From contig NZ_BAAAZF010000001.1 in NCBI RefSeq assembly GCF_039536765.1, positions 434,001 to 498,000 of the forward strand: a stretch of 64,000 nt of DNA. Direction: 5' to 3'. The stretch's first letter is position 1. Every line of letters starts with the position of its first letter. Source of the stretch: Parerythrobacter jejuensis. Its GTDB lineage: Bacteria; Pseudomonadota; Alphaproteobacteria; Sphingomonadales; Sphingomonadaceae. A program made the translations under genes and the position numbers. The notes beneath the pieces are model-generated. The model was not told the DNA's origin. It searched no databases and saw only the letters and a list, made by a program, of their open reading frames with translations. Below, in pieces: positions 21,525 through 23,509 of the stretch.

Positions 21525-22016
21525 TCAGTGGGCGATGCGGGACTTCGTATCACGGAATGTGCGGCCTGCCTTGCGCCCGGCGCGGCGGCCCAGATCATGG
21601 GCGGCATCGCGGGCGGTGGTCGCAAAATGAGATCCTTCGCGCTTCGCTTTGCGGGCCGTGCGATCCAGTGTGTCACTGATGTCCTCCAGCTTGTCGCCGC
21701 CAGCTTGCTTGACGTCGTCCGCGATGTCTCCCGCACTGTCGATCACGCCCATGGCGTAGGCGATCCCCGCTTCGGTCGCGTAGGATGCAAGGCCGGCTGC
21801 GCGGTTGCCCAAACGCCTGCCGGGTCGTGTCATCGCGCCGATCATGATGCCCAGGATGGCAACACCAGCCACGCTGGCCACCGGGTGGGCTTTCACAAAT
21901 TCGGTGGCAACAGTGCCTGCCTCTTTGGCTGCGGCGACAAAGTCCCGCTCTGCCAGGCGGCGTTCGCCTTCTTCGATACGCGCGCGCAAGGCATCACGTT
22001 TCTCTTCAGTGGTCAT
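21525..22016 (-). CDS. Membrane-anchored stress-type protein (DUF883-like), last gene of the yqjD-like operon
   Basis: 163 residues. A charged N-terminal helix (TTEEKRDALRARIEEGERRL) leads to one small-residue membrane segment at about residues 43-62 (VASVAGVAILGIMIGAM), flanked by a basic TRPGRR. A long amphipathic region follows, with a highly basic end (GRRAGRKAGRTFRDTKSRIAH). The membrane motif after HPVAS resembles the anchor of ElaB/YqjD proteins. Its ATG overlaps the stop of the previous gene (ATGA), so translation is likely coupled. Function is unknown; a role at the inner membrane under stress is inferred from the promoter and gene order. Confidence 0.75.
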   Translation of the reverse strand: MTTEEKRDALRARIEEGERRLAERDFVAAAKEAGTVATEFVKAHPVASVAGVAILGIMIGAMTRPGRRLGNRAAGLASYATEAGIAYAMGVIDSAGDIADDVKQAGGDKLEDISDTLDRTARKAKREGSHFATTARDAAHDLGRRAGRKAGRTFRDTKSRIAH

Positions 22017-22369
22017 TCTTCGTCTCCACTCGTTTCTGGATCGAGCGCGTCAGGGGAGGCGGGCTCTTCCGGTTGGTCAAAATCGGCCAGCTCTTCCTCG
22101 TCGAAGAACAGGGCCAGGATGGGATTGCGCGCGAACCAGAGAATGATGGCCCCAATCAGCAGGGCAAGAATGCCCTTGTTGCTGTCGGCGCTGCTGCTGG
22201 CTTTGTCGAATACCTCCGCCGCACCGTCCTTGGCTCGATCAAGCGCGCGTGCTCCTACGCCGCGATTGTCCAAATCGCTTTTCAAGCGAGCGATATCGGC
22301 CTTTACCAGGGCCCGGGCGGCGTTGCGCAAGGCCCGGTCTTCAATCAATTGTCGGTCAAGCCTGCTCAT
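22013..22369 (-). CDS. Small single-pass membrane protein, third gene of the yqjD-like operon
   Basis: 118 residues from ATG 22369 (MSRLDRQLIEDRALRNAARALVK). The N-terminal half is a charged helix with DIARLKSDLDNRG. One membrane segment follows (GILALLIGAIILWFARNPIL), then a very acidic tail (DEEELADFDQPEEP). The position after the YqjE-like gene corresponds to yqjK in enterobacteria, but sequence similarity cannot be judged by eye. It overlaps the upstream gene by 14 bases and the downstream one by 4. The frame upstream to 22441 is inside the neighbour and is not used. Confidence 0.75.
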   Translation of the reverse strand: MSRLDRQLIEDRALRNAARALVKADIARLKSDLDNRGVGARALDRAKDGAAEVFDKASSSADSNKGILALLIGAIILWFARNPILALFFDEEELADFDQPEEPASPDALDPETSGDEE

Positions 22370-22781
22370 CGGTTTCACTCTTGAACGCTTCTGACACGGC
22401 TTTGAACCGGCTAACGGCGATGCCGCCAAAAATGGCGACACCGAGCAAAAGGACCCCTACCACTGTGGCGACTGCGCCAAAGGCGGTCAGATAGGGCTCC
22501 AGCGCAATGATAAGGCCGACAACCAGGCCGATCAGGGCAAGATGCAGGAAAGCAAATGCACCAAGAACGGCTATGACGCCGCCCTTGGTTTTCTTACCGG
22601 CAAATCCAGCCCGGGACTTCTGGAACGCGATTTCGGCATCGACATAGGTCTTGCCGTCTTCGATCAGCGCACTGACATCATCTGCCAGGGAGCCGAAAGG
22701 CGGATCGCTCGCAGCGTCTCGCGGCGTGCTCACCGGTTCCAGAGTATCAGGCTGCGCATCACGCGCGGCATCATCCAGCAT
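22356..22781 (-). CDS. YqjE/holin-III-like membrane protein
   Basis: 141 residues. A hydrophilic N-terminal half ends in an amphipathic helix (ALIEDGKTYVDAEIAFQKSRAG). Two membrane segments follow (GGVIAVLGAFAFLHLALIGL and AVATVVGVLLLGVAIFGG). This layout is that of the family often labelled 'phage holin family protein' (PF07332), to which E. coli YqjE belongs. There is no phage context, so the holin name should not be read as a lysis function. It overlaps the downstream gene by 14 bases and starts 26 bases after the preceding gene. Confidence 0.78.
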   Translation of the reverse strand: MLDDAARDAQPDTLEPVSTPRDAASDPPFGSLADDVSALIEDGKTYVDAEIAFQKSRAGFAGKKTKGGVIAVLGAFAFLHLALIGLVVGLIIALEPYLTAFGAVATVVGVLLLGVAIFGGIAVSRFKAVSEAFKSETDEQA

Positions 22782-22807
22782 TCGCGCAGCCCCTCACTCT
22801 TGGTTGC

Positions 22808-23419
22808 TTAACGACGGAACAGTCGCGCCAGGATGTAGCCGCCAATTGCCGCAAGGCCAATCGCCGTTCCGGGGCTTTTGCGCACGAATTCGCGAGCATC
22901 ATCGCCGATTTCCTCGACGCTCTTGGCCTCCAGCTTCGCAGCGTTTTCTTGCAAGCTGCGCGAGGCATTCCGTGCATAGTCACCGTATTTCGGGCCGAAC
23001 TGGTCGTCGATGGCTGCCGCATTGTCGGCCACCATCTTGCCCAAAGCGGAAAGGGCATCGCTTGCCTTGGCTTTGCCTTCTACAGCAAGCTCACCAGCGC
23101 GAACCTTGGTTTCTTCGGCCAGCTCGGAAGCGCGCACCTTGGCCTCTTCGCCGTAGGCCTTGGCATCTGCCGTCAGATCGGTGCTCTTGCCCTTGGCCTG
23201 TTCGCGATAGGTACCGACCACTTCGCCAGCTTCAGCCTTTAGCGCAGCGGCACCGGCCTTCGCTTCGTCAAGTGCCGCATTGAAACGGGACTTGGCTTCC
23301 TCGCGGTGGGCCTGTGCTTCCAGCACTTCCGGTTCTGCCTTCGCGGGCGATGCCTTGGCCTTGGTGGCGCGTTTGGTTTTCGGTTTTGCGGAGCTTCCGC
23401 TGGTCGGACTCTTGGCCAT
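22808..23419 (-). CDS. YqjD/ElaB-like membrane-anchored protein with a histone-like basic head
   Basis: 203 residues from ATG 23419. Residues of about 2-30 are Lys/Ala/Ser/Pro-rich (KPKTKRATKAKASPAKAEP), like bacterial H1-type tails. The middle 130 residues are a charged amphipathic helix with repeated EEAKVRASELAEETKVRAGE blocks. The C-terminus REFVRKSPGTAIGLAAIGGYILARLFRR-type anchor (about residues 178-203) matches the glycine-rich tail of DUF883/YqjD, a ribosome-binding inner-membrane protein in E. coli. It is the first gene of a four-gene operon behind a GGAAC-N17-GTT element. A GAGGG ribosome-binding site precedes the ATG. Confidence 0.8.
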   Translation of the reverse strand: MAKSPTSGSSAKPKTKRATKAKASPAKAEPEVLEAQAHREEAKSRFNAALDEAKAGAAALKAEAGEVVGTYREQAKGKSTDLTADAKAYGEEAKVRASELAEETKVRAGELAVEGKAKASDALSALGKMVADNAAAIDDQFGPKYGDYARNASRSLQENAAKLEAKSVEEIGDDAREFVRKSPGTAIGLAAIGGYILARLFRR

Positions 23420-23484
23420 TGTTTGATCCCTCAAAATTCGTTTCGTTTCAGCGCAGTCGGGGGACTTTGCCTGCTCAATAGTAC

Positions 23485-23509
23485 AACGCGTCTTGCGCCG
23501 AATTGTTCC
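23485..23509 (-). promoter_or_regulatory. Candidate EcfG (general stress response) promoter
   Basis: On the minus strand GGAAC (23509-23505) is followed after 17 bases by GTT (23487-23485), with the C before GTT that is typical of alphaproteobacterial EcfG promoters. The distance to the ATG at 23419 gives a leader of roughly 60 bases. It is the only full match I found when scanning the intergenic stretches of the window. Confidence 0.6.

Follow-up and report, generated by a model that had tools for sequence, protein, structure and literature searches.

Does the EcfG-type element at positions 23485-23509, between a run of four small genes (genes 1 to 4) and the divergent enolase gene eno of Parerythrobacter jejuensis, act as a general-stress promoter, and what would it control? 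The element was analyzed in a window of 64,000 nucleotides (assembly GCF_039536765.1, contig NZ_BAAAZF010000001.1, positions 434,001 to 498,000), whose numbering is used throughout, and was compared with related eno loci. Our analysis suggests that an EcfG promoter drives an inner-membrane operon and that, being interlocked with the eno promoter, it would let stress raise the operon and lower enolase, a reading to which we assign a probability of roughly 0.6. Within this reading, conservation supports the element as a genuine sigma-EcfG promoter, and this general-stress promoter probably turns on the expression of four small proteins of the inner membrane. An initial annotation had proposed such a promoter before a yqjD-like operon; its observation was confirmed, and its interpretation was partly supported, being right in outline.

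The EcfG-type box is conserved between eno and the operon

The box (GGAACAATTCGGCGCAAGACGCGTT) reads GGAAC-N16-CGTT on the minus strand, which is an exact match to the EcfG consensus reported for Sphingopyxis granuli TFA (PMC7083833) and fits the GGAAC-N17-20-GTT form of the Sphingomonas melonis Fr1 regulon (PMC6599016). It lies 65 nucleotides (nt) before the ATG of gene 1 at 23419; boxes of those two regulons are likewise no more than 100 bp from their genes (PMC7083833, PMC6599016). In the window, the loose form GGAAC-N16-18-GTT occurred 4 times against 3.78 expected, and the CGTT form once against 0.97 expected. These ordinary counts, equal to expectation, would be compatible with a chance match, in which the conserved bases at this place belong to the eno promoter only. 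The box is significant because of its position and conservation.

Conservation was assessed in 119 genomes drawn from the family, of which 86 had a gene 2 match at E ≤ 0.001; all 86 loci were used. Among the 33 genomes without such a match, eno was found in 31, and 30 of these loci were added, one being left out with eno in fragments. Three of the 86 loci (L109, L133, and L145) were excluded, as eno was not found in the stretch, leaving 113 eno loci. Family hidden Markov models at a lenient E ≤ 1 placed genes 1 and 2 beside eno in 105 of them (weakest matches 2e-10 for gene 1 and 0.07 for gene 2) and not in the other 8.

The results showed that GGAAC-N17-18-GTT was present on the operon strand of 79 of the 105 operon-bearing intergenes, compared with 0/105 on the eno strand and a mean of 0.59 (maximum 3) of 105 in 100 dinucleotide shuffles. 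None of the 8 eno loci without the operon carried it. When CATT forms in the interlocked register described below were also counted, the box was present in 85/105 loci. Every one of the first 30 loci aligns with the box (strict form in 26, CATT in 4), but these are a favorable sample because they hold the best gene 2 matches, and the 105 loci give the fair count. The strand specificity, the excess over shuffles, and the lack of the box beside operon-less eno, together with its presence in 24 of the 34 sample loci without the eno anchor pattern, make a chance match very improbable and bear out the EcfG-type promoter of the initial annotation. The eight family loci in which eno has neither an adjoining operon nor a box are L163, L176-L179, and L182-L184.

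The genome also encodes the corresponding regulatory system. A single NepR match exceeded the Pfam cut-off, and its open reading frame (ORF) overlaps another that contains sigma-70 region 2 and region 4 domains (ecfG); nepR-ecfG has its own GGAAC-N16-CGTT upstream. Under general stress, NepR releases EcfG.

A second sample was built from the best 80 of 539 gene 1 relatives, one of which had no eno and was dropped. The remaining 79 loci, from Erythrobacter, Altererythrobacter, Tsuneonella, Croceicoccus, Novosphingobium, and other genera, are not independent of the family sample, as at least three contigs are of equal length in the two. The strict box was found in 41 of these 79 loci, 37 times in the interlocked register and 4 times outside it (L207, L233, L250, and L259).

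In one clade the box is interlocked with a putative eno promoter

A putative sigma70-type promoter of eno runs antiparallel to the EcfG promoter and is interlocked with it, so that the -35 element of either lies within the spacer of the other. Neither the divergent eno gene nor the interlocked promoter was mentioned in the initial annotation. In the aligned loci (n = 48), a GCAAG in the box spacer and an upstream TATGCG were strongly conserved, and these read TTGC-N17-TA on the eno strand. On that strand, the pattern TTG[CT]NN-N16-18-TAN[AG] within 120 nt of eno was found in 46/50 interlocked, 43/55 other operon-bearing, and 5/8 operon-less loci (shuffle means 2.5, 2.1, and 0.2, respectively), and in 68 of the 79 gene 1 sample loci (shuffle mean 4.8, maximum 12). 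Furthermore, TA-N18-20-GCAA[GC] was present on the operon strand of 78 of those 79 loci, with at least 7 of the 9 EcfG core bases in register in 55 of the 78. The conserved motif in the box spacer belongs to eno, since the eno elements stay where the EcfG box is lost.

The interlocked register was observed in 50 of the 105 operon loci. When 105 rows of gene 1 were placed on a tree, the interlocked loci grouped in a single clade (support 100/99), in which 50 of 53 rows are interlocked; the tree requires three changes, for example one gain and two losses, with the bootstrap not fully settled. The median intergene length was 171.5 nt in interlocked loci and 160 nt in the others, and the box lies 73 nt before gene 1 in the 50 interlocked loci compared with 39 nt in 35 other loci; these figures use automatic start choice, and at least one start (L030) lies too far inside. 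Because the interlocked intergenes are no shorter than the others, lack of space did not cause the overlap.

These data bear on an alternative that we place slightly below even odds, namely that the EcfG operon is real and the overlap is neutral packing, with the rate of eno transcription unaffected by stress. The separation of the two promoters in the other box-bearing loci, where the box sits nearer to gene 1, agrees with neutral packing, as does the gene 1 sample, where the box has decayed (23/78) or lies out of register (4 loci) while the eno elements are kept. Retention of the interlock in nearly all rows of a strongly supported clade, in intergenes with no shortage of length, argues against it. 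Moreover, two polymerases cannot hold interlocked -35 and -10 elements simultaneously, which also argues against neutrality. From this geometry, the EcfG and sigma70 polymerases would be mutually exclusive at the eno and operon promoters.

Several observations weigh against an EcfG promoter coupled to eno. In the family sample, 20 of 105 loci have no box of either form, and 3 of the 8 operon-less genomes lack the eno pattern. Matches to the eno pattern were also seen on the operon strand, in 0/55 other and 0/8 operon-less loci and, somewhat more often than in shuffles, in 6/50 interlocked loci and 16/79 loci of the gene 1 sample. In the latter sample, the box is out of register with the eno elements in the four loci named above, and 23 of the 78 eno-anchored loci keep fewer than 7 of 9 EcfG core bases, the box being degenerate in many Erythrobacter/Porphyrobacter-type loci. 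Therefore, both EcfG control and the interlock are dispensable. In addition, none of 22 boxes drawn from the S. melonis Fr1 gene list (Table 1, 50 genes) matched the intergenes at up to 5 mismatches, although Fr1 is perhaps outside the sample. On the functional side, and against ribosome binding, PA3040 and PA3041 of Pseudomonas aeruginosa did not inhibit growth when overexpressed, unlike YqjD and YqjE of Escherichia coli (PMC11302039).

Two groups of loci stand apart in the gene 1 sample. The GGAAC-N17-18-GTT box is out of register with the eno elements in the Novosphingobium loci L207, L250, and L259. The EcfG box has decayed, with the eno elements kept, in the Erythrobacter/Porphyrobacter-type loci L208, L213, L216, L231, L232, L236, L246, L248, and L266; such loci form a natural test set for EcfG dependence.

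Organization of the locus

The features of the locus are collected in Table 1. The spacings between genes 1-2, 2-3, and 3-4 are 26, -14, and -4 bases, respectively, which reproduces the layout given in the initial annotation, and these overlaps and gaps suggest that genes 1-4 form one operon. The terminator-like hairpin is a consensus match only (8 such matches were found in the region against 3.1 expected). Beyond it, the window contains a DUF4170 gene (21196-21426, 82.8 bits), followed by an acetyltransferase gene. Of the first 30 family loci, 29 have a DUF4170 gene 3′ of the operon; in the window it stands behind the hairpin.

Table 1. Coordinates of the features at the eno-operon locus, in window positions (aa, amino acids; nt, nucleotides; TM, transmembrane)
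Feature	Position	Strand	Description
EcfG-type promoter	23485..23509	-	-35 GGAAC 23509-23505, 16-nt spacer, -10 CGTT 23488-23485
Putative sigma70-type eno promoter	23493..23521	+	-35 TTGCGC 23493-23498, 17-nt spacer, -10 TAGAGC 23516-23521
Dyad GGTGTTGTA-N6-TAAGACACC	23542..23565	.	between putative eno promoter and eno ATG
eno (enolase)	23587..24870	+	divergent from operon; ATG at 23587
Gene 1 (203 aa)	22808..23419	-	disordered basic N-terminus, long amphipathic helix, DUF883-type C-tail anchor
Gene 2 (141 aa)	22356..22781	-	YqjE / PF07332 family, two TM-like stretches
Gene 3 (118 aa)	22013..22369	-	small single-pass protein without Pfam family; not YqjK by profile
Gene 4 (163 aa)	21525..22016	-	remote DUF883 protein, long basic tail past TM-like stretch
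Terminator-like hairpin	21472..21501	-	directly 3′ of gene 4; 13 pairs, 9 of them G-C

Other candidate control sites were also seen. The dyad was considered as a regulon operator and rejected, there being just one site in the genome. The full dyad was found in 15/50 interlocked, 0/55 other, and 19/79 gene 1 sample loci, and its half-site in 18/50, 0/55, and 54/79, respectively. For the operon itself, there are two weak sigma70 promoter-like sites and, on the operon strand and upstream of the box, a possible RpoH-like TTGTA...CCCCATAT, for which a loose genome scan gave 27 matches against 5 in the backward control.

Proteins encoded by the operon

The profile comparisons proposed for the four proteins in the initial annotation recovered YqjE (PF07332), with no match to PF05957 anywhere in the genome at E ≤ 0.001 and none to YqjK. 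Gene 2 scored 33.5 bits against PF07332, over the cut-off of 28.4, and all 15 family members matched at E ≤ 0.01, so its assignment as YqjE-like held. In addition, the gene 2 profile matched YqjE relatives with an E value of 2.1e-6 (reversed control 0.0065), and hydropathy peaks beginning at residues 76 and 100 indicate two membrane stretches. Gene 3 has one membrane-like stretch, as expected of the small single-pass protein that had been described. Its suggested relation to YqjK was rejected, with a profile E value of 0.33 against 0.37 for the reversed control. Pfam families gave only weak matches in 1-2 of 14 gene 3 members and none for the window protein.

For gene 4, a family profile from 30 loci aligned with body and anchor of YqjD relatives over 62 columns (hhalign probability 95, E 2.3e-8; reversed control 0.0029). 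DUF883_C matched 11 of 15 members at E ≤ 0.1 (best 5.9e-6), and the NCBIfam model PRK10132 matched 12 of 15 at E ≤ 0.01, with the ElaB model matching 3 of 15. The DUF883-like character that had been claimed for gene 4 is thus seen in the family, but the window protein itself is not matched by DUF883_C at E ≤ 0.1 and stays under the curated cut-offs of DUF883_C (13.3 bits vs 27) and PRK10132 (22 bits vs 157). A long basic tail follows its membrane-like stretch.

Gene 1 had been described as an H1-like basic head on a YqjD-type anchor. The tail anchor stood, as the C-terminal 34 columns align with YqjD relatives (hhalign probability 83, E 8.6e-6; reversed control 0.12), but the alignment is limited to that anchor, and the protein has no DUF883 body; DUF883_C matched 2 of 12 members at E ≤ 0.01. 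YqjD is more closely related to gene 4 than to gene 1. The head is basic in composition, the 40 N-terminal residues carrying a net charge of +5, and very variable among relatives, and nothing beyond composition links it to H1. A structure model was helical with a disordered N-terminus (mean predicted local distance difference test score 71.9, predicted template modeling score 0.40), and solved structures gave nothing convincing (2 matches, best E 0.057).

These properties raise the possibility that gene 1 is a stress-made, apolipoprotein-like amphipathic helix that lies along the inner membrane in drying or osmotic shock, without ribosomes. We regard this as possible, though clearly short of even odds. 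The helical model with its disordered N-terminus is consistent with it, as are the Apolipoprotein profile, which scores 27.9 bits on gene 1 and reaches E ≤ 0.01 in 6 of 12 members, and the hydropathy autocorrelation at lag 11, which was 0.21-0.37 in 6 of 6 sequences tested (shuffle standard deviation 0.09-0.10). The profile score, however, is under the cut-off of 90, and conservation in gene 1 is highest in the anchor and in the YGDYAR block that precedes it. A clear 11-residue repeat was also rejected, as lags 7 and 18 were positive as well and equaled or exceeded lag 11 in 3 of the 6 sequences; since the three lags behave alike, the repeat is of a kind typical of amphipathic helices generally.

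Comparison with known stress operons

In E. coli, a sigmaS promoter precedes yqjD (PMC10746276), and YqjD parks ribosomes at the inner membrane (PMC10746276, PMC11302039), as does ElaB. Like the present operon, yqjCDEK encodes small membrane proteins under a stress-sigma promoter, includes C-tail-anchored DUF883-type proteins, and has a YqjE relative immediately 3′ of the first tail-anchored gene (PMC10746276). The two operons differ in that gene 1 shares the anchor only, gene 3 is not YqjK, and the DUF883-like protein is encoded by gene 4 and has a long basic tail. Here, moreover, the sigma factor is EcfG and the operon is divergent from eno, with the promoter interlocked in one clade.

An operon of the order DUF883, YqjE, and an uncharacterized protein is also found in P. 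aeruginosa, where PA3040-3042 are controlled by the envelope-stress sigma factor AlgU and highly induced in stationary phase (PMC11302039). That operon differs from the present one in its sigma class and in its first gene, which has the DUF883 domain; an eno neighbor is not mentioned in the available part of that paper (PMC11302039).

From such parallels it could be argued that the operon is the sphingomonad yqjDEK, with the main task of tying stationary-phase ribosomes to the membrane. We consider this doubtful. The YqjE match of gene 2 above its cut-off, the links of gene 4 and the gene 1 tail to DUF883, and control by a stress sigma as in E. coli (PMC10746276) are in its favor, but gene 1 has no DUF883 body, gene 3 is not YqjK, and PF05957 is unmatched in the genome. 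Even in E. coli, YqjE and YqjK have no known function (PMC10746276). Ribosome anchoring by the operon products is plausible by analogy. An inner-membrane stress scaffold is the most likely function of the operon, of which ribosome parking and direct membrane shielding would be rival special cases.

The term 'holin' is absent from the main texts on the TFA and Fr1 EcfG regulons, and 'enolase' from that on Fr1; the parts of these papers that were available describe no interlock with eno (PMC7083833, PMC6599016). Literature searches gave no paper joining EcfG with DUF883 among the matches listed, nothing joining Sphingomonas, phage holin family protein, and stress, and nothing joining overlapping divergent promoters, sigma factor, RNA polymerase, and mutually exclusive. 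A search on enolase, divergent promoter, general stress response, and alphaproteobacteria returned nothing relevant by title.

Proposed mechanism and implications

In the proposed model of an EcfG-driven operon coupled to eno, general stress would cause NepR to free EcfG, and the cell would then make the four operon proteins, of which one is predicted to be tail-anchored with an amphipathic helix, one to belong to the YqjE family, one to be small and single-pass, and one to be remotely related to DUF883. These proteins would form a scaffold or shield for the inner membrane and might also park ribosomes there, as YqjD and ElaB do in E. coli. In the clade of the window, the EcfG polymerase on the operon promoter would exclude the sigma70 polymerase from the housekeeping eno promoter, so that stress would raise the membrane operon and lower enolase simultaneously. 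Its strongest form, in which EcfG seated on the operon promoter occludes eno in one clade without any repressor and thereby sets a glycolysis-or-stress switch, is suggested by the promoter geometry and is advanced tentatively, as an unlikely possibility.

The part worth following is the interlocked eno promoter of one clade, which, like the fixed position of the operon beside eno, was unforeseen. If the coupling is true, the general stress response could lower glycolysis through promoter competition alone. More broadly, E. coli (sigmaS), P. aeruginosa (AlgU), and, as judged from the present sequence data, the sphingomonads (EcfG) appear to share the placement of YqjE-type membrane operons under a stress sigma of their own, which suggests that these little-understood proteins have a core task in stress.

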